DNA of 64,000 bases from Acidimicrobiales bacterium (GTDB lineage Bacteria; Actinomycetota; Acidimicrobiia; Acidimicrobiales; SZUA-35): positions 1-64,000 of the forward strand of contig JABDIY010000167.1 in the NCBI GenBank assembly GCA_013003535.1, read 5' to 3'. The notes beneath the pieces are model-generated. The model was not told where the DNA came from. It saw only the letters and a program-made list of their open reading frames with translations, and did not search any database. Each line of letters starts with the position of its first letter. Position 1 is the first letter of the stretch. Below are positions 12,012-25,707 of this stretch, in pieces. The position numbers and the translations under genes are program-made.

Positions 12012-13868
12012 CTAGTCGATCACGACGGTCCGGAGCCCGGACCGGTAGGACTGGTTGCCAGCGGCGTCGAACGCCTTCACGTACAGCTGGTAGGTGCCCG
12101 GAGCGAGACCGGTCACCGTTCCCGACGGTCCGGCGACCTGAACCAGGATCAGGCTGGTGGCGTAGTCGAAGACCCGGTAGCCGGCGACGCCAACATTGTC
12201 AGTAGCCGGAGTCCATGACAGTGACACCGTCCCGGAGTCGATCGACTGGATGGCTGGGGCACCCGGCACCGACGGCCGCTCGATGTCCACTACCGCACCC
12301 GTCACCGTGAAGGACCGGATACCCGACCGGTAGGACTGGTTGCCAGCGGCGTCAAACGCCTTCACGTACACCGAATACGAACCAACAGCCAACCCCGACA
12401 CCGTCGCACCAGCACCCGGCACCTCAACAATCACCGCATCCGTGACCGCATCAAACAACCGGTACCCCGCAACACCCACATTGTCCGTCGACGCCGCCCA
12501 CACCAAATCAACCGAATCCACACCAACACCCAACACCTGCGCCGCACCCGGCACCGACGGGCGCTCCGTGTCAATGGTTCCGGCCTCGCACAGCCTGATC
12601 AGGTTGTCGACGGCGGAACCGCTGGAGCTGGTGATGTCGCCACCGAACCACAGGCAGCCGTTTTGGTCACCGTGAATGGCCCAGATGCCGGCCTTCGCCG
12701 ACGTGGCGTCGGGAACGAAGGATGGGATCCAGTCACCGGTGATCGCATCGAACGCCGCCACCCAGGTGGTTGGTCCTTGAGCCAGGATGGGCGCATCGGT
12801 CTCGCCGGCAGGCGGCGAAGGGAACCAGATCACTCCTTCGGCGGATTTCATGATTGCATCGGCTCGACAATGGCAGGATGCATACACCCGGTCGCCGACG
12901 ATTTCGAGATCTTGGTAGTCCCCTCTTGGGTCGGCCAAATGGAAACGTTCCAGCGACAGATCGCTTTCATTCAGCACCTGAACGAAGTGTTCGCTTCCGG
13001 CGACCCAGACGAACCCGTTGCCGACCACGACGTCATAGAGGTAGCGGCGGTTGGTGTTAGCGGTGTTGAACGGCAGGGACGGCGCGCCCGCCACCAGCGA
13101 AGGTGTGGACGCCATGAGAGGCGCAAACCCGCCGGCCACAGCGCTGCCATTCACCGAGGAGAAATAACCGGCGAGGTAGACCCGATCCGCATCAGGGCTG
13201 GCGGCGATTCCCCATACCGATCCACCGGTCACCACGGGTCGCCAGGACGGGTCGTGCGCTCCGGTGTGCACGTTGAAACGGAGGGCTCGCCATGCCGCAT
13301 TGTTGCCGGCGCTGGAGATCACGCTGGTGAAGCTGCCGCCTACATACAGCCAGTCACCTTCAACATCGAAGCCGCGGACCACCGGGGCTCCGTTTACGTC
13401 GCCGGTCCAGGAGTTGTCCACCGCTCCGGTCACCGGATCGAGGGCGACCAAAGCGTCGATCGGCGATCCGTTGACCGTGTCGAAATCTCCGCCCACGAAG
13501 AGCTTGCTGCCATCAGGTGATGCCTGGAGCGTGTAGACCGAGTTGTCCAGAGTTGGTGCGAAGCTGGGAATGTACTGACCGGTGATGGAGTCGAACGCGG
13601 CCAGGTACGGCTGATTCACCACGGTGTTGCCGGCGGTTACTTGGAGGAATCGGCCGCCAACATAGATCCGGCTCCCGATCTGTTCGATGGCCCACACCTT
13701 GGTGTCGATCGAGTCGGTCTGTGTGCCAGTGGCGAGCCCCACTACGCCATCAGGGAGGTTGTTGTTATTGCCGATCTCAGCCGCCGCCGGATTCATGCCC
13801 GCCATCACGGAGCCGAGCACGAGAAGAAGAGAAAGAAAAACCCGCGAACGGGAAATAGAGGTCGTCAT
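12012..13868 (-). CDS. Secreted beta-propeller protein with two C-terminal FN3 domains
   Basis: The 618-residue protein has a Sec signal peptide (hydrophobic VFLSLLLVLGSVMAGM, then NPAAA). Repeated blades of the type YVGGxF-xxV-xG...xxLAAFDxxTG occupy about residues 45-430, as in delta-60 or PQQ-like propellers. Two tandem fibronectin type III domains follow, each ending AFDAAGNQSYRSG. It is probably extracellular or surface-bound; ligand unknown. ATG 13868 is chosen because AGGAG lies 5 nt before it. The first FN3 domain (about 12295-12570) uses G- and T-ending codons unlike the C-rich rest of the gene. Confidence 0.8.
   Translation of the reverse strand: MTTSISRSRVFLSLLLVLGSVMAGMNPAAAEIGNNNNLPDGVVGLATGTQTDSIDTKVWAIEQIGSRIYVGGRFLQVTAGNTVVNQPYLAAFDSITGQYIPSFAPTLDNSVYTLQASPDGSKLFVGGDFDTVNGSPIDALVALDPVTGAVDNSWTGDVNGAPVVRGFDVEGDWLYVGGSFTSVISSAGNNAAWRALRFNVHTGAHDPSWRPVVTGGSVWGIAASPDADRVYLAGYFSSVNGSAVAGGFAPLMASTPSLVAGAPSLPFNTANTNRRYLYDVVVGNGFVWVAGSEHFVQVLNESDLSLERFHLADPRGDYQDLEIVGDRVYASCHCRADAIMKSAEGVIWFPSPPAGETDAPILAQGPTTWVAAFDAITGDWIPSFVPDATSAKAGIWAIHGDQNGCLWFGGDITSSSGSAVDNLIRLCEAGTIDTERPSVPGAAQVLGVGVDSVDLVWAASTDNVGVAGYRLFDAVTDAVIVEVPGAGATVSGLAVGSYSVYVKAFDAAGNQSYRSGIRSFTVTGAVVDIERPSVPGAPAIQSIDSGTVSLSWTPATDNVGVAGYRVFDYATSLILVQVAGPSGTVTGLAPGTYQLYVKAFDAAGNQSYRSGLRTVVID
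12041..12369. repeat. 44-bp near-identical repeat in the two FN3 domains
   Basis: About 44 bp at 12041-12084 recur at 12326-12369 (285 bp apart) with a single mismatch. They encode the shared end of each FN3 domain. The rest of the domains has diverged, which points to domain duplication followed by local gene conversion. Confidence 0.75.
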
Positions 13869-14030
13869 TGCCACTCCTGAGTACTACGCCTGGGCTCAGA
13901 TTAGATGCCCGGCCGGGCCCCAGAACATGCCCAAAGGTCTCAATGGTGGGGGGTAGTTCAACCCGACGAGGTGGCCGTCACGGACCTCGCCAGCCAGAGA
14001 ACGATGGCAGGACGGGACTGCAAAGATGGC

Positions 14031-14036
14031 TAACGT
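14031..14036 (+). promoter_or_regulatory. Putative -10 box (TAACGT) for glycosyltransferase gene
   Basis: TAACGT ends 6 nt before the GTG at 14043 and there is no Shine-Dalgarno sequence, so a leaderless transcript is likely. The rest of 13869-14030 shows nothing further that I can name. Confidence 0.5.
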
Positions 14037-14042
14037 GGACCT

Positions 14043-15254
14043 GTGTCAGCCGCGGCCGCCCATCCCGAGATTCTGCTGATCGACTACGGCGGTCATCCAT
14101 TCACCGCCGATCTGGCCATCTCCCTGAAGCGGTCAGGGGCAGAGGTCAACTACGTATTCAGTTCATCCAACGAGTCCAATCCGCACGGCGATTTCTCCGA
14201 TGCCAAGAATGAGGGCGTGGTCGTGCACGACATCGACCTTGGCCGACCGGTGAACTCGTCCCGACTTCGAAGCCGTTTTCGCGACGAGCAACAATTCGGC
14301 TGGGCGGCCGCGAAACTCGTTCGGCTCGCACCCCCATCCGCCACCGTGGTTCTCTGTCAAGTTCCGCCGGCTGCAGCGGTCATCATCCAGGGGGGCGCCA
14401 AGACCCGCCGACAGAACGTTGTCCTCTGGTTGCAGCAACTTCAAGCCGATCTTTCGGCCACCTCGGCCAGCAGAGCGTTACCGGGCAAGATGTTCTCCGC
14501 TTTGGAACGACGAATCGCATCGTCGGCCGATCGCGTGATCGCCATCTCCGACGGCTTCGCCGAGTTCGCCATCGCTGCCCGACGTGGAAATGCCGATGGG
14601 GTCACCGTTTTGCCTAACTGGGCTCCGCTGCGGTATCTCCCGAGCCGGCATCGCATCAACCAATGGTCCACAAAGCATCAGCTGGTCCCCGAACGTCACC
14701 GGGTTCTCTACAGCGGTCGGATGGGCCTGGAACACCGGCCAGACGAAATCGCTGCTTTAGCGCTCACGCTCACGGCCAACGGCGATGTAGACATGGTCAT
14801 CGTGGCAGCCGGGCCCGGCGTCGAGGCATTGCGGCGGCGTCCTGAGCTCACCTCACATCCCAATATTCTTTTCTGTGACCTCCAGCCTTTGGGTGATTTG
14901 GCCAACGTGCTCGCCAGCGCTGATGTGTTGCTGGGAACGCTGGATGACCGAGCATCCGAAGCGCTGGTCCCGTCCAAGATCCTGTCCTACTTGTGCGCCG
15001 CCCGGCCCGTGGTCGCTTTGATGAAGAAGTCCAACCCGTCCGCCGTTCTGGTGGAGGAGATCGGCGCCGGGGTGGCCGTTTCCGACATCCACACCGCCGT
15101 CGACACGATTCGCAGTCTCCTGGCTGACCCGGACCGCCGCCGCCGAATGGGGAATCTGGGTCGGGCCTACGCATCAACTACATTTGAGCCCAACCGGGTT
15201 GCCAAGAGCTTTGCGCTGGCGGCGGGTGTTGATCTCCCCGGCAATCAGGCCTGA
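14043..15254 (+). CDS. GT4-family glycosyltransferase
   Basis: The 403-residue protein is a GT-B glycosyltransferase. The N-terminal Rossmann half opens with PEILLIDYGGHPFTADLAISL, and the donor-binding half has VLYSGRMGLEHRPDE, then the E-x7-E-like region around SEALVPSKILSYLCAARPVVA. It resembles WbuB-like enzymes of surface polysaccharide synthesis; the sugar and acceptor are unknown. It stands alone here, about 10 kb from the main polysaccharide locus. Confidence 0.82.
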   Translation: MSAAAAHPEILLIDYGGHPFTADLAISLKRSGAEVNYVFSSSNESNPHGDFSDAKNEGVVVHDIDLGRPVNSSRLRSRFRDEQQFGWAAAKLVRLAPPSATVVLCQVPPAAAVIIQGGAKTRRQNVVLWLQQLQADLSATSASRALPGKMFSALERRIASSADRVIAISDGFAEFAIAARRGNADGVTVLPNWAPLRYLPSRHRINQWSTKHQLVPERHRVLYSGRMGLEHRPDEIAALALTLTANGDVDMVIVAAGPGVEALRRRPELTSHPNILFCDLQPLGDLANVLASADVLLGTLDDRASEALVPSKILSYLCAARPVVALMKKSNPSAVLVEEIGAGVAVSDIHTAVDTIRSLLADPDRRRRMGNLGRAYASTTFEPNRVAKSFALAAGVDLPGNQA

Positions 15255-15286: not shown

Positions 15287-15331
15287 TCAGGTAGTTTCTC
15301 AGTGCGGCCGGAGAAGCTTTGCGAGGTGCCC

Positions 15332-16516
15332 ATGAAATCGGCGAAAACACAATCAGTGTCCTCCTCTCGAAGCATTGCGCTGATTCTTCTTGCCGTCTTG
15401 GCAACGCTGGCCGCCGGGTGCGCGGGCGAAACGATCGGGGCCGGCCCCAATGGGGCGCTCGCCGTGCAGGGTGCTGTTGCAGAAAACAGTGCCGCCGACA
15501 ACGAGCCCCTGGCTTTTGACGACGAGACTACGGATCAGGCTGCAACCGATCAGGGCACAACCGAGACCAGTCCGGCGGCATCGGGCGAGGTCCGCATGGC
15601 CCGAGCAAACTGGTCATCGGGATACATGCAGGCCGAGATCTATGCCCACCTGCTCACAGAACTGGGCTACACGGTGGATCGGGGACCCGAGCTGGCTCCG
15701 GAAGACTTTTTCCAGGGGCTTGCCGAAGGTGAGTTCGATTTCTGGGCCAACAGCTGGCCGATCAGCCACCAGCGTTTCTTCGACACCGCCATGGCAGACG
15801 GCACCAGAGCTGGCGACAAGATGCGGTTTATTGGATCCGAAATGCTCCTCGGCGGCCTCCAAGGTTTCGTGGTGGATATCGCTACGGCCACCTCGGCCAA
15901 CATCGTGACCCTCGATGACATCGCCAACAATCCTGAACTCCGTTCTCTCTTCGACACCGATGGTGACGGGCGAGCCGAGATCGCCGGCTGCGACGTCGGC
16001 TGGGGTTGTGAAAAAGTCATCGACAGCCTGATCGTGGACAACGGGTGGGAGGATGCTCTGGTGCAAGTGAAAGGGACCCACGGAGAACTATTTGCCGAAC
16101 AGGTAGCCCGTTTCGAAGCCGGAGAACCGGTGCTGGCATTCATCTGGACACCCGGCCCGTTCATCACCCAGCTCCAGCCCGGCGTCGACGTCATCTGGCT
16201 CGGAGTCGAAAACCCTGACCCAGCCCAATCCATACCGGCCCGACTGCCCACGGACCAGTGCCTATTGGACCCGTGCACCATGGGATTCAGCCCGTCTGAC
16301 ATTCTGGTGGCCGCCAACAATGACTTTCTCGACGCTCAGCCAGTGGCGAAACGCTTGTTCGAGCAGGTCAAGATCAGCGTTCTCGACGTTTCGTTCCAGA
16401 ACGTGAAGATGCTCGCCGGCGAAGACAGTCCCGAAGATGTGGCACGACACGCCCAAGAGTGGATCGCCGCGAACCGCAGCGACGTTGACCGCTGGTTGGA
16501 GATCGCCGCCGGCTAG
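15332..16516 (+). CDS. proX: ProX-type glycine betaine binding lipoprotein
   Basis: The 394-residue protein has a lipobox (ATLAAGC, Cys30), an acidic Ala/Thr/Glu linker to about residue 85, and a ProX-like binding fold: RANWSSGYMQAEIYAHLL, GEFDFWANSWPISH, GCDVGWGCEKVID and VLAFIWTPGPF. Trp-rich segments of this kind form the cation-pi box for glycine betaine and related compounds. Relatives work with an ABC permease and ATPase (ProVW), but none is encoded nearby, so it is an orphan here. ATG 15332 is preferred over GTG 15302 because GAGG lies 5 nt upstream. Confidence 0.83.
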   Translation: MKSAKTQSVSSSRSIALILLAVLATLAAGCAGETIGAGPNGALAVQGAVAENSAADNEPLAFDDETTDQAATDQGTTETSPAASGEVRMARANWSSGYMQAEIYAHLLTELGYTVDRGPELAPEDFFQGLAEGEFDFWANSWPISHQRFFDTAMADGTRAGDKMRFIGSEMLLGGLQGFVVDIATATSANIVTLDDIANNPELRSLFDTDGDGRAEIAGCDVGWGCEKVIDSLIVDNGWEDALVQVKGTHGELFAEQVARFEAGEPVLAFIWTPGPFITQLQPGVDVIWLGVENPDPAQSIPARLPTDQCLLDPCTMGFSPSDILVAANNDFLDAQPVAKRLFEQVKISVLDVSFQNVKMLAGEDSPEDVARHAQEWIAANRSDVDRWLEIAAG

Positions 16517-20964: not shown

Positions 20965-21606
20965 CTAGGAAACGGAGAACGCCCCAGCTCCCTGGTAAGA
21001 GTCCATGGCTTCCAGGACCTCGGGCAAGGATCGGCGAGCGCCGCTCTGGAGGTACTCCATGGCACGAAGCGCGTGCTCGTGCGCATCCTGACTGGATCCG
21101 GCAACGCAATCTTCGATCACGCGGCAAAAGTAGTCGGACTGGTGCGCGTCCACGAACGTGTAGTGGACACAGACGTCGGTGAGACCTCCACACAACAGCA
21201 GCGTGTCTACGTTCAACGCTCGCAGCATGATTTCGAAATCGGTTCCGAAGAAGGCGGAATAGCGTCGCTTCCTGACCAAAATGTCGGTCTCCAGAAATCC
21301 GGTTTGTTTGGCCACCGCAGTGGTGGGGTTGGTTTCGATGCAGTGAACGTCTTCGTCGCCATCCAGCTCGCGACCGAAATCCAGGAGGTCGGGACGGTGA
21401 ACTTCCTGGATGAAGATGACCGGGATGTCCCGCTGGCGGGCCTTGTCCACTGCGATGCGGGCCTTCGCCATGCGGTCGGCGTAGTCGGACATGTGGTCGA
21501 TAGAGCGCACATCCTGCTCGATGAACGCTGATTCCAGAATGTCGATGACCACGAGTACGGGGTGACCCTCGATCAGGTTCCGGTGCAGCTTGTTCGGATT
21601 TGCCAT
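20965..21606 (-). CDS. Isochorismatase-family cysteine hydrolase
   Basis: The 213-residue protein has the catalytic triad of this family: Asp22 (LVVIDILES), Lys113 (RKRRYSAFFGTDF) and Cys146 (GGLTDVCVHYT). Members hydrolyse amides or ureas such as nicotinamide, N-carbamoyl compounds or biuret, or vinyl ethers. The substrate is unknown. It converges on murD2 with a 7-bp gap and lies beside a carboxylesterase gene on the same strand. Confidence 0.88.
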   Translation of the reverse strand: MANPNKLHRNLIEGHPVLVVIDILESAFIEQDVRSIDHMSDYADRMAKARIAVDKARQRDIPVIFIQEVHRPDLLDFGRELDGDEDVHCIETNPTTAVAKQTGFLETDILVRKRRYSAFFGTDFEIMLRALNVDTLLLCGGLTDVCVHYTFVDAHQSDYFCRVIEDCVAGSSQDAHEHALRAMEYLQSGARRSLPEVLEAMDSYQGAGAFSVS

Positions 21607-21612
21607 GCCCTG

Positions 21613-21618
21613 ATCCTA
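21613..21618 (-). promoter_or_regulatory. Putative -10 box (TAGGAT) for isochorismatase-like gene
   Basis: TAGGAT on the minus strand ends 6 nt before the ATG at 21606 and no ribosome binding site is visible. It overlaps the stop region of the esterase gene upstream. Confidence 0.5.
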
Positions 21619-22548
21619 CGAGAGCGTGTCCGTTACCCAAATCGCAGCCGCCGATCGGCCCTCTACACCACTGCGCTTTGGCATTGCAAAGTTGCCGTGG
21701 ATCCCCGACGGTTGATGGACTGCGGTGACCGGCACACCGTGCATTCGCAGGGCGTCGGCATAGAGCAAACCCTCCGAAGCCAGCGGATCGAAACCGCACG
21801 TAAGCACGAACGCCGGAGCGGTACCGGAGAGATCCTGCCCCAGCAATGCCACCCTTGGATCATTCCGGTCCGAGAGGTTCGGAACGTACTTGTCCCAGAA
21901 CCACTCCATGGCCTCAGTCACCAGGCCATAGCCCTCCCCCACTTCTACAAAGCTCGGCAAGGTGAAGTCGCACTGAACCACCGGGTAAATCAGGAGTTGC
22001 CCGGCCAACACGATTCCGTCGTCTCTGGCGGCCAGGGCCACCGTCGCGGCAAGGTTGCCGCCGGCGCTATCGCCACCGACGGTGATGCGGGCCGGATCGA
22101 TCTCGAGCTCCTCCGCTTGATCGACAACCCACTGGAGGGCGGCGGAACAGTCATCGAAGGCGCCGGGGAACGGCGTCTCCGGAGCCAGCCGGTAGTCCAC
22201 GCTGATCACCGTGCAGCCCGTCTGATGGCACAAGGTCTGCGCCGGCAGCTCGCCGGTATCCAGATCCCCGAGCACCCACCCGCCGCCGTGAAACCAAAGG
22301 ATGGCAGGGGCCAGCGTGTCAGTCATCCGATAGATGCGAACCGCCACGGCACCACCGGGACCGGAGAAGGCGGAGTTCGTAATCGAATGGACCGCGGGGA
22401 CCGCGGTCGGCTTCCGGTTGGCCGCGAACTGTTCCCGAACATCCTGGGTGGTGCAAGTGCTGTAGTCCAGAGGGGCGGAGCCGGGGAGGGCCAGATAGTC
22501 GGCGAGATCATCGTCTATTGCTTCGGCTCGGGAATACGTAGACGTCAT
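21616..22548 (-). CDS. Alpha/beta hydrolase, hormone-sensitive lipase family
   Basis: The 310-residue protein has the HSL-type oxyanion motif HGGGW (87-91), nucleophile GDSAGG (Ser161), acid in CGFDPLASEG, and the histidine in IHGNFAM. Such enzymes hydrolyse short-chain esters. The frame is open to 22833, but the ATG at 22548 is preferred: TATTCT lies 6 nt upstream, and the longer version would run into the divergent DddP-like gene. It ends 10 bp before the isochorismatase-like gene. Confidence 0.88.
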   Translation of the reverse strand: MTSTYSRAEAIDDDLADYLALPGSAPLDYSTCTTQDVREQFAANRKPTAVPAVHSITNSAFSGPGGAVAVRIYRMTDTLAPAILWFHGGGWVLGDLDTGELPAQTLCHQTGCTVISVDYRLAPETPFPGAFDDCSAALQWVVDQAEELEIDPARITVGGDSAGGNLAATVALAARDDGIVLAGQLLIYPVVQCDFTLPSFVEVGEGYGLVTEAMEWFWDKYVPNLSDRNDPRVALLGQDLSGTAPAFVLTCGFDPLASEGLLYADALRMHGVPVTAVHQPSGIHGNFAMPKRSGVEGRSAAAIWVTDTLS

Positions 22549-22560: not shown

Positions 22561-22667
22561 CTGCGTCGGGTGGGTGGAAAGACTTGAGCTCACTTGCCTG
22601 CTCCGCAACAACCACCGCATAGATTTACAGTGCACGTTCTCCTGGCACATTCTCGAATGGAGCGAGC

Positions 22668-23849
22668 TTGTCAACAACCGATCGGGATGCCGCACCGTTT
22701 GATCTGGAGGCGTTGCGCCATGCTCGGCGGGAACACCTTCGGCGGCACATGGTTGAAGCGGGTGTGGGGCTTTGTGTCCTGACCAACCCGGTCTCCATTC
22801 GGTATGCCACCGACTACCGCGGTTATGCCACATTTCAGAGCCGGATCCCCAGCCAATACCTGCTCATTGGAATCACCGGGCCCGTCGTGCTCCACGGCGC
22901 CTACACCGATGGGCTGAGCACGATCGACCACTGTGCCACTGCCCATTCCGTCACGGGGTTCGACGCCGGCCTGGATCTGGGAGCTGCGGCCAAACGATTC
23001 GTCGCCGACGTCCAGGCCGCTCTGCGGGCCTGTGGACTTGGGGTAGATGGGCCGGTGGCCGTTGAACGGTCCACCCCGTCCGGCCATCGCGCCCTGGAGA
23101 CGGCCGGACTTACCGTGGTGGATGCCGAGCCAACCCTCGAATTGGCCAGGAGCCGCAAACTCCCCGCCGAGCTCACCGCCCTCCGAACCGCCGTCGGGGT
23201 AGCCGAGGAAGCGATCGCCCAGATGCACGTAGCGCTCGAACCGGGGATGAGCGAGAACGAACTCTTCGCCATCCTTCATCACACGAACATCGCCAACGAC
23301 GGCGACTGGATCGACGGGCGAATGCTGTGCTCGGGGCCCCGGACCAACCCCTGGTATCAAGAAGCCAGTGGTCGAAGAATCCGAGATGGTGAACTGGTGG
23401 CCTTCGACACGGACATGATCGGACCGTACGGCTACTGCGCCGACATCTCCCGCACGTGGGTTTGCGGTGATTCACCCAGCGCGGCACAAACCGATTTGTA
23501 CAAGCGGGCGCTCGAGGAGATCCGCCACAACACCAGCCTGCTCGAAGTCGGTGCGAGCTTCAGAGACATCTCAAACGCAACGTTTCGTCACCCTGCGGAA
23601 TTCGTCGCCAACCGATACGCCTGCGCCTTCCACGGCGTGGGGATGAGCGACGAGTACCCCAAAATTCCTTATCCCCAGGACTGGCATTGGACCGGCTATG
23701 ACGGCGAACTGGAAGAGGGCACGGTGCTCTCGGTGGAAAGTTATGTCGGCGCGGCCGGTGGATCGGAAGGCATCAAACTGGAACAAATGGTGCACGTGAC
23801 TGCCTCAGGGGTCGTTCCCTTGTCCACGTACCCGTTGTGGGACGTTTGA
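22668..23849 (+). CDS. M24-family metalloenzyme, DddP-like (possible DMSP lyase)
   Basis: The 393-residue protein has a creatinase N-domain and a pita-bread M24 domain. Metal ligands appear as Asp247, Asp249, Asp259, His322, Glu357 and Glu372; Tyr317 and Asp328 flank the His (AFHGVGMSDEYP). The spacing matches, with a one-residue shift, the ligands and catalytic Asp I remember for DddP of Ruegeria. The Asp-Asp gap of 10, unlike 11 in prolyl peptidases, also fits. DddP cleaves DMSP to acrylate and DMS. An Xaa-Pro peptidase remains the alternative. The TTG start has GGAG 5 nt upstream. Confidence 0.72.
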   Translation: MSTTDRDAAPFDLEALRHARREHLRRHMVEAGVGLCVLTNPVSIRYATDYRGYATFQSRIPSQYLLIGITGPVVLHGAYTDGLSTIDHCATAHSVTGFDAGLDLGAAAKRFVADVQAALRACGLGVDGPVAVERSTPSGHRALETAGLTVVDAEPTLELARSRKLPAELTALRTAVGVAEEAIAQMHVALEPGMSENELFAILHHTNIANDGDWIDGRMLCSGPRTNPWYQEASGRRIRDGELVAFDTDMIGPYGYCADISRTWVCGDSPSAAQTDLYKRALEEIRHNTSLLEVGASFRDISNATFRHPAEFVANRYACAFHGVGMSDEYPKIPYPQDWHWTGYDGELEEGTVLSVESYVGAAGGSEGIKLEQMVHVTASGVVPLSTYPLWDV

Positions 23850-23850
23850 G

Positions 23851-24876
23851 GTGACCACCGCGCGACAGCCGCCGGCTCCCTACCAAACTGGAGCCGCGGT
23901 CTGGCGAGGCTGCAACCTTCAAGACTCACGCCAATGGTCCTGGCGGTGGACTGCGAGGGAGATCGAAGAGCTCCTGGCCGCAGCCGAACCCTACTGCGAA
24001 GCGTCCGACGCCGAGCTCACCGGCCTCACACCCAACGATTTTCCGCTCCCGTCCATTGGTCCCAAACTTGTTGCGCTCCGTCGCCAGTTGACCCACGGAC
24101 GAGGCTTCGAATTGGTACGGGGGTTTCCCGTCGACGACCTCACCGGAGGGCAGTGCCAAGCCGTATTTGCCGGCATCGGCAGTCACCTCGGCGGCCTTCG
24201 CAGCCAGAATGAGGCAGGCGATCTCCTCGGTCAGGTGAGAAACGTCGGGGCCGACGCCACCGACCCGAACGTGCGCATCTATCAGACCAACGAACGGCAG
24301 AGTTTCCATACCGACTCCGCCGACGTTGTTGGGCTCCTCTGCTTGCGGACCGGCGCCACCGGTGGCGATTCGCTACTGGTGAGCGCAGCCACCATCTACA
24401 ACGAGATGTTGCGGACTGATAAGGATTTGGCTGCGGTCCTGTTCCAGCCGATCGCCACCGATCGTCGCGGGGAGGTACCGCCGGGTGCACTTCCCTTCTT
24501 CACCATCCCAGTGCTCACCTGGTATGCCAACGCTCTCACCGTCATGTATCAGCGTCAGTACATCCAGTCCGCCCAGCGGTTTGCTGATGCCCCGCGCCTC
24601 ACCAAGGAAGTGATCGAGGCGCTCGATCTATTCGATGAAATCGCCAACGACCCGCAACTGCATTTACACATGCGGTTGGAAGTTGGCGACATGCAATTTG
24701 TTCACAACCACTCCATGCTTCACGACCGCACGGCGTTCACCGACCGACCCGAAGCGCCCCGGCACCTACTGCGACTCTGGTTGTCCGTACCCGGTGACCG
24801 GGCGCTGCCGCCAGTTTTTGCGCAGCGTTTCAGGTCGGTGGTGGTTGGTGATCGGGGCGGGATCGTGGCGGGTTAA
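23851..24876 (+). CDS. TauD/TfdA-family Fe(II)/2-oxoglutarate dioxygenase
   Basis: The 341-residue protein carries the facial triad start HTD (His153, Asp155 in QSFHTDSADVVGLLCL) and the later FVHNHSMLHDRTAF with the distal His, then Arg in LLRLWLS. The closest type is the clavaminate-synthase-like TauD branch acting on small metabolites. Substrate unknown. It begins one base after the stop of the DddP-like gene, so the two are surely co-transcribed and may act in one pathway. Confidence 0.87.
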   Translation: MTTARQPPAPYQTGAAVWRGCNLQDSRQWSWRWTAREIEELLAAAEPYCEASDAELTGLTPNDFPLPSIGPKLVALRRQLTHGRGFELVRGFPVDDLTGGQCQAVFAGIGSHLGGLRSQNEAGDLLGQVRNVGADATDPNVRIYQTNERQSFHTDSADVVGLLCLRTGATGGDSLLVSAATIYNEMLRTDKDLAAVLFQPIATDRRGEVPPGALPFFTIPVLTWYANALTVMYQRQYIQSAQRFADAPRLTKEVIEALDLFDEIANDPQLHLHMRLEVGDMQFVHNHSMLHDRTAFTDRPEAPRHLLRLWLSVPGDRALPPVFAQRFRSVVVGDRGGIVAG

Positions 24877-24930
24877 GCCGGTTTCTACTGGGTCGGAACA
24901 AACCCCAGAGCGGAGGGGTTGGGGATCGGT

Positions 24931-25707
24931 ATGACAATCGAAGCGCCCGCTGCGGCCGACACCCGCACCTACGACATCGAGTTCTTCTGGGACCCGGTGT
25001 GCCCGTTCGCATGGATCACGTCGCGCTGGATTCACAAAGTCATGGCCCAGCGTGAGTATGCGGTGCGCTGGCGTTTCATCTCACTCCGCCTCTTGAATTC
25101 CCACATCGACTACGGGGCGCACTTTCCGCCCGACTACGAGCACGGCCACACTGCCGGACTCCGCATGCTGCGGGTGGCTTCGGCAATTCGAGATGACCTC
25201 GGCGAAGAAGCGATGCAGGATCTCTACAACGCCTTCGGCAGCTCGGTGTTCGATGTGGATCGGTCCGAAGGTGGCTTGGATCCCGGTTCTGAACCTCGTT
25301 CATGGTTGGGGACCACCGACCACCTTCAAAGGGTTCTCACCAACTTGGGGCACGATCCCAGCTATGCCGCGGCCGCCGACGATGAAACTCGAGACGCCAT
25401 CGTGCAGGCCGACACCGACGCCGCTCTGGAAATGACCGGACGAGACGTGGGAACCCCGATCATCGCGTTCCACGGGAAGGGCGGAGCGGAGACAACCGCG
25501 TTCTTTGGCCCGGTCATCAGCCGGGTACCCGATGACGAGCACGCGGTAGAGCTGTGGGATGCGGTCACCACCCTCGCCGCCTTCCCCAGTTTCGCCGAGA
25601 TGAAGCGCAGCCTCCGGGAGCGCCCTCAGCTCCGCTCTCTTGGTGTCAACACCGGCGAGGCCGGCAAGGTTGAAGATTGGAAAGCTGGTTCCCGCCGCTG
25701 GGACTGA
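24931..25707 (+). CDS. DsbA-fold protein, Rv2466c (mycothiol-dependent nitroreductase)-like
   Basis: The 258-residue protein matches the Rv2466c type: FFWDPVCPFAWITSRWI at the active site, and EDVGTP-like DVGTPIIAFHG, then FFGPVISRVP. Rv2466c uses a CPWC motif with mycothiol. Here the motif is C24-P-F-A, so the resolving cysteine is Ala; a monothiol mechanism or a non-redox role is possible. The ATG at 24931 is chosen because the sequence before it (GGAGGGG at 24912) can serve as ribosome binding site and homology starts after it. It follows the dioxygenase gene by 54 bp. Confidence 0.82.
   Translation: MTIEAPAAADTRTYDIEFFWDPVCPFAWITSRWIHKVMAQREYAVRWRFISLRLLNSHIDYGAHFPPDYEHGHTAGLRMLRVASAIRDDLGEEAMQDLYNAFGSSVFDVDRSEGGLDPGSEPRSWLGTTDHLQRVLTNLGHDPSYAAAADDETRDAIVQADTDAALEMTGRDVGTPIIAFHGKGGAETTAFFGPVISRVPDDEHAVELWDAVTTLAAFPSFAEMKRSLRERPQLRSLGVNTGEAGKVEDWKAGSRRWD

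Follow-up and report, generated by a model that had tools for sequence, protein, structure and literature searches.

A DddP-like M24 metalloenzyme gene of an Acidimicrobiales bacterium belongs to a sister clade of the DMSP lyases whose genes lie mostly among betaine-type degradation genes

Among the genes for DMSP lyases in ocean surveys, dddP, which encodes DddP, is the most frequent, with about 65% of the ddd genes (PMC10686828). In such surveys dddP is counted by sequence similarity. Crystal structures are available for DddP of two Roseobacter species, RlDddP (4rzy/4rzz) and RdDddP (4b28), both with an M24 'pita-bread' domain, and the PDB includes RlDddP variants at both catalytic candidates, Tyr366 to Ala (4s00) and Asp377 to Asn (4s01). 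Six metal ligands (Asp295, Asp297, Asp307, His371, Glu406 and Glu421) and an N-terminal extension have been described, and the tunnel wall of each subunit is contributed by the N-domain of its partner (PMC4108388). For actinobacteria it was stated in 2018 that neither the DMS-producing strains nor other sequenced genomes contain a known functional ddd gene (PMC6309047), so that an actinobacterial DddP would be notable.

The stretch of DNA analysed here (the window, 64,000 nucleotides of a contig from an Acidimicrobiales bacterium) contains a DddP-like M24 metalloenzyme gene at 22668–23849 on the forward strand. It is an uninterrupted open reading frame of 393 codons for amino acids with a TTG start, preceded by a GGAG at 22659–22662, 5 nt upstream of the start codon. 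In a phmmer search of the PDB, crystallised DddP matched residues 12–390 of the protein with E-values of 2.6e-64 (4rzy/4rzz) and 6.2e-64 (4b28), at about 35% identity, whereas the best prolidase-type chain gave 3.6e-9. Judged from the sequence, the fold is clear and the similarity to DddP is homology, not chance; the earlier description of a DddP-like M24 protein was therefore correct. Pfam reports Peptidase_M24 and a weak Creatinase_N. On the curated DddP equivalog model of NCBIfam (NF043017, cut-off 600 bits) the protein reaches 288.3 bits, less than half the cut-off, compared with 626–907 bits for the proteins that pass. Residue 51 of RlDddP aligns after just 11 residues of the window protein, which implies that the N-terminal loop-helix extension of DddP is missing.

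The aligned residues of the active site agree fully with those of RlDddP. The six metal ligands correspond to Asp247, Asp249, Asp259, His322, Glu357 and Glu372 of the window protein, and Tyr366 and Asp377 to Tyr317 and Asp328; the offset in numbering is 48, then 49 past a single indel. All eight positions, together with the one-residue shift in spacing, had been named in the earlier note from the sequence alone. The comparison was extended to 143 DddP-like rows (41 of clade B, the group of the window protein described below, nine of DddP, i.e. the two crystallised proteins and others over the NCBIfam cut-off, and 93 others) and six prolidase-type rows. Of the 143 DddP-like rows, 142 retain the six metal ligands and 121 retain the full set of eight, among them every clade-B row (41/41). 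None of the six prolidase-type rows has the complete set, as they carry Gly at position 297 and His or Ser at position 377. Xaa-Pro aminopeptidases and prolidases (M24B) thus have the fold and five ligand positions in common with the window protein, but are devoid of equivalents of Asp249 and Asp328 in the rows tested. As the residue set is common to nearly the whole DddP-like superfamily, it is not diagnostic of DMSP lyase; on these alignments it is a mark of the superfamily, and an observation that was real had been over-read.

A segment of the N-domain, in contrast, sets the window protein apart from DddP. Residues 49–63, DYRGYATFQSRIPSQ (encoded at 22812–22856, forward strand), stand in place of the DddP segment 88–102, DSTNMQLWNTHNPFR. 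Asn91, Met92, Trp95, Asn99 and Arg102 (RlDddP numbering) are identical in all nine DddP rows and replaced in clade B, where Tyr is found for Met92 (38 of 41 rows), Phe for Trp95 (35/41) and Ile for Asn99 (34/41). Creatinase uses residues of the partner-subunit N-domain at about the position of this replaced segment. By analogy with creatinase and with the tunnel wall of DddP, residues 49–63 would form part of the wall of the active-site tunnel in the partner subunit, and we infer a role for them in specificity.

Family tree analysis separates the window protein from the characterised DddP proteins. In a tree of 93 rows (IQ-TREE quick search with SH-aLRT support, to be read with caution because of the quick method and long branches elsewhere), characterised DddP falls in a clade of 13 rows (SH-aLRT 99), which also includes a paralogue from the window's own genome (L001), and the window protein falls in a different clade of 33 rows, here called clade B (SH-aLRT 99), within an actinobacterial subclade of five rows (support 100). 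The prolidase-type proteins form a separate outgroup, and the grouping with prolyl peptidases that the earlier note had named as contrary to its reading is absent. Pairwise identities agree with the split, as actinobacterial clade-B rows are 45–71% identical to the window protein and 31–36% to RlDddP. Orthologues from other Acidimicrobiia (L009, L010, L064, L065 and L012) are 65–71% identical, lie in the same subclade and have the same residues. The genomes of Tropicibacter and Roseovarius encode a canonical DddP (907 bits) as well as a separate clade-B copy (293 and 284 bits, respectively), which implies that clade B is not simply a local version of DddP. Pelagibaca bermudensis has been reported to have no DMSP-lyase activity (PMC10686828); it was sought via HpbD, to serve as a natural control, and is absent among the 397 genomes drawn from the family, the best match being 69% identical. 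In Tropicibacter sp. R16_0, two DddP-like M24 genes lie about 4 kb apart on one contig (L072:7944–9146 and 13270–14514), one with a 4-bp overlap with a DMGDH-like gene and the other with a HalD-type dioxygenase gene.

The gene context of the clade-B relatives is one of quaternary-ammonium and N-methylamine catabolism. Within 6 kb of 39 clade-B loci (gene calls and counts approximate, with some duplicates, such as L040, which is the L064 contig), a Rieske oxygenase alpha subunit is encoded near 13, a DMGDH-like protein near nine (within 200 bp in seven) and a HalD-type 2-oxoglutarate dioxygenase near eight (at 80–430 bp in six), followed by an MR/MLE enolase (6/39), choline sulfatase (5/39), an MttB-like protein (4/39) and a GlxA regulator (4/39). 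The set of neighbours varies from one locus to another. The nearest solved relative of the Rieske neighbour is carnitine monooxygenase. Genomes of 4–6.7 Mb encode 2–13 Rieske proteins, and we estimate that one would lie within 6 kb by chance at about 1–3% of loci, against the 13 of 39 observed. In three related actinobacterial genomes (G004, G009 and G019), each with only one or two choline sulfatase copies, a choline sulfatase gene over the cut-off lies within 1 kb of the orthologue. The link to betaine and quaternary-ammonium catabolic genes, betaine transport included, extends to other DddP-like relatives: on rhizobial and Paraburkholderia plasmids, DddP-like genes lie beside genes for a Rieske oxygenase, a trimethylamine-methyltransferase-family protein and a GlxA regulator, with hydroxyproline epimerase and glycine-betaine/proline ABC genes also adjoining. 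The rhizobial proteins, annotated as Xaa-Pro peptidases, belong to the same superfamily (about 39–44% identity) but mostly to other clades, and have mostly kept the catalytic residues, with Gly for Asp377 in that of S. meliloti (L062). Our search of the literature yielded no paper that links DddP or M24 enzymes to betaine catabolism. In Paracoccus yeei, a plasmid gene that carries the annotation DMSP lyase DddP (L180:7788–9137) has MR/MLE and hydantoinase/oxoprolinase genes as neighbours, which suits the breakdown of amino acids or hydantoins and not that of DMSP.

At the window locus, the M24 gene is followed by a TauD/TfdA-family 2-oxoglutarate Fe(II) dioxygenase gene (23851–24876, forward strand, GTG start, 341 aa). 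As the M24 stop codon occupies 23847–23849 and the GTG begins at 23851, the gap is a single base, as the earlier note had it, and the two genes are probably co-transcribed. The third co-directional gene (24919–25707, forward strand) encodes an Rv2466c-like mycothiol-dependent (DsbA-fold) protein. Upstream, a LipP1-like alpha/beta hydrolase (esterase) gene (21616–22521, reverse strand) runs divergently, about 146 bp away from the M24 gene; its longest open reading frame opens with a start codon inside the M24 gene, which is probably not the one used. It is followed by an isochorismatase-family hydrolase gene (20965–21606, reverse strand). A gene for a ProX-type glycine betaine/proline-binding protein (15302–16516, forward strand; 251 bits, cut-off 215) lies about 6 kb upstream and is not contiguous with the M24 gene; apart from this gene, none of the typical clade-B neighbours was found at the window locus. 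When the other neighbours of the window gene were sought at the other loci, only ProX-like matches appeared, at two loci. The ProX-type gene has no ABC ATPase or permease genes adjoining it and is followed by a SulP-family transporter gene.

Among solved structures, those nearest to the TauD protein are 7n7v ('predicted hydroxylase') and FrbJ (5eqn); the protein is only weakly related to gamma-butyrobetaine and trimethyllysine dioxygenases. It had been remarked that such a gene is an unusual neighbour for dddP, and the comparison goes beyond that remark: a TauD gene adjoins the DddP-like gene at none of the 39 clade-B loci, nor at any other locus examined. Where the window has TauD, the Acidimicrobiia orthologues have among their neighbours genes for choline sulfatase, TetR, a HalD-type dioxygenase and an MttB-like protein. 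The HalD-type 2-oxoglutarate dioxygenase genes directly beside several clade-B M24 genes suggest that the pairing of a dioxygenase with an M24 protein may recur, but as the two families are different the parallel may also be coincidence.

With moderate confidence, we propose that the window protein acts on a betaine-type zwitterion, as a DddP-type metalloenzyme from a sister clade. The genes of the widespread sister group usually lie among betaine-type degradation genes, for which reason DMSP is probably not the substrate. In the literature we came upon no assay of any clade-B member, and the class of substrate is therefore read from gene context. The protein would be a binuclear-metal lyase or hydrolase, probably a homodimer, in which the six retained ligands would hold two metals with Tyr and Asp above them; this retained DddP core would probably catalyse a reaction of the DddP type or a related hydrolysis, in which the metals would hold a carboxylate, the Asp or Tyr would take a proton, and the bond to a charged leaving group would break. 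With an N-domain segment unlike that of DddP, the enzyme likely accepts another small zwitterion, most likely an osmolyte-derived betaine or N-methylated amino-acid compound, and the TauD-type dioxygenase may work in the same short catabolic path. A side activity on DMSP may be present.

The suggestion of the earlier note that the protein, if active, would be an actinobacterial DMSP lyase is supported as far as the likeness to DddP goes, but not in the step to lyase, given that the residues are superfamily-wide, the score is 288 bits against the equivalog cut-off of 600 and the clade is a separate one. That it is a functional, divergent DddP releasing DMS and acrylate from DMSP appears improbable to us, even though all six ligands and both catalytic candidates are retained, DddP enzymes tolerate variation in the substrate, e.g. 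DMSOP (PMC10686828), actinobacteria making DMS without a known ddd gene have been reported (PMC6309047), and the window's own genome encodes an AcuI/YhdH-type reductase and a DmdA-like protein just under its cut-off. Apart from the score and the clade, the coexistence of the clade-B type with canonical DddP in Roseobacters, the absent N-terminal extension and changed N-domain segment, the presence in the same genome of a closer DddP relative (L001, 461 bits) and the relatives' neighbourhoods, which point to nitrogen compounds, all argue against it. Still less credible is an ordinary Xaa-Pro aminopeptidase or prolidase, as could be read from the Pfam matches and from the automatic annotation of relatives as 'Xaa-Pro peptidase family protein'; the similarity to peptidases (E about 1e-9) is far below that to DddP (about 1e-64), prolidase-type proteins are an outgroup, and the rows tested differ at Asp249 and Asp328.

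The alternative that deserves somewhat more weight, although we consider it unlikely as well, is that the M24 and TauD proteins act together on a hydroxy-amino acid, free or N-methylated, or on some other non-betaine compound, with the HalD-type hydroxylases beside the relatives making an analogous hydroxylated substrate. At several clade-B loci, HalD-family genes rank with the closest partners and with those most suggestive of an operon (80–430 bp), and the partner of the window gene is likewise a 2-oxoglutarate dioxygenase. However, TauD and HalD are not closely related, so that the parallel may be coincidental, no common substrate can be named, and the Rieske, DMGDH-like and choline-sulfatase partners point instead to methylated nitrogen compounds.

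The finding of a large sister family that has all DddP catalytic residues and occurs in nitrogen-osmolyte clusters implies that the number of DMS producers could be overestimated, above all outside the Roseobacters, when it is judged by a check of residues or by a permissive similarity cut-off. If the family acts on betaines, it would add a so far unassigned enzyme to common osmolyte-degradation clusters of marine bacteria and rhizobia, and would suggest an origin of DddP. A broader and speculative idea, to which we give little credence at present, is that DddP forms one small branch of a large family, so far unrecognised, of 'onium' lyases or hydrolases that originally acted on N-betaines. 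Clade B, with the window protein, would then cleave a nitrogen analogue, for instance 3-trimethylammoniopropionate, to give trimethylamine and acrylate, or a betaine hydroxylated by the partner dioxygenase, and DMSP lysis would be a derived specialisation.

The DddP-like superfamily is expanded in the actinobacterial family of the window, and five copies were found in its genome. The best match to the DddP model is L001 (L001:1486–2802, contig 36 of G000, reverse strand), a protein of 438 aa with an N-terminal extension, 44% identity to RlDddP and a position within the DddP-containing clade; by sequence it is more promising than the window gene as a candidate for an actinobacterial DMSP lyase. 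Of the three further copies, L002, L003 and L005 (contigs 18, 185 and 158), L002 has Phe and Asn at the Tyr366 and Asp377 positions, L003 has Gly at the Asp377 position and L005 is truncated where its contig ends. The genome also encodes a YhdH/AcuI-type reductase over its cut-off and a DmdA-like protein (L185:7580–8731, contig 146; 390.6 bits, cut-off 410), which may be a true DMSP demethylase. Together with a choline sulfatase gene (L186:6218–7732, contig 190), these make DMSP use by the organism possible, with L001 as the better candidate lyase. The contig with the choline sulfatase gene has no DddP-like match, and as it also holds the start of a HalD-type-like dioxygenase gene, the M24 gene may in this genome have become detached from the cluster present in relatives. 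This partial gene (L186:12408–13001) is 4.7 kb from the choline sulfatase gene. An MDR-family oxidoreductase is encoded about 1 kb away from the DmdA-like gene.
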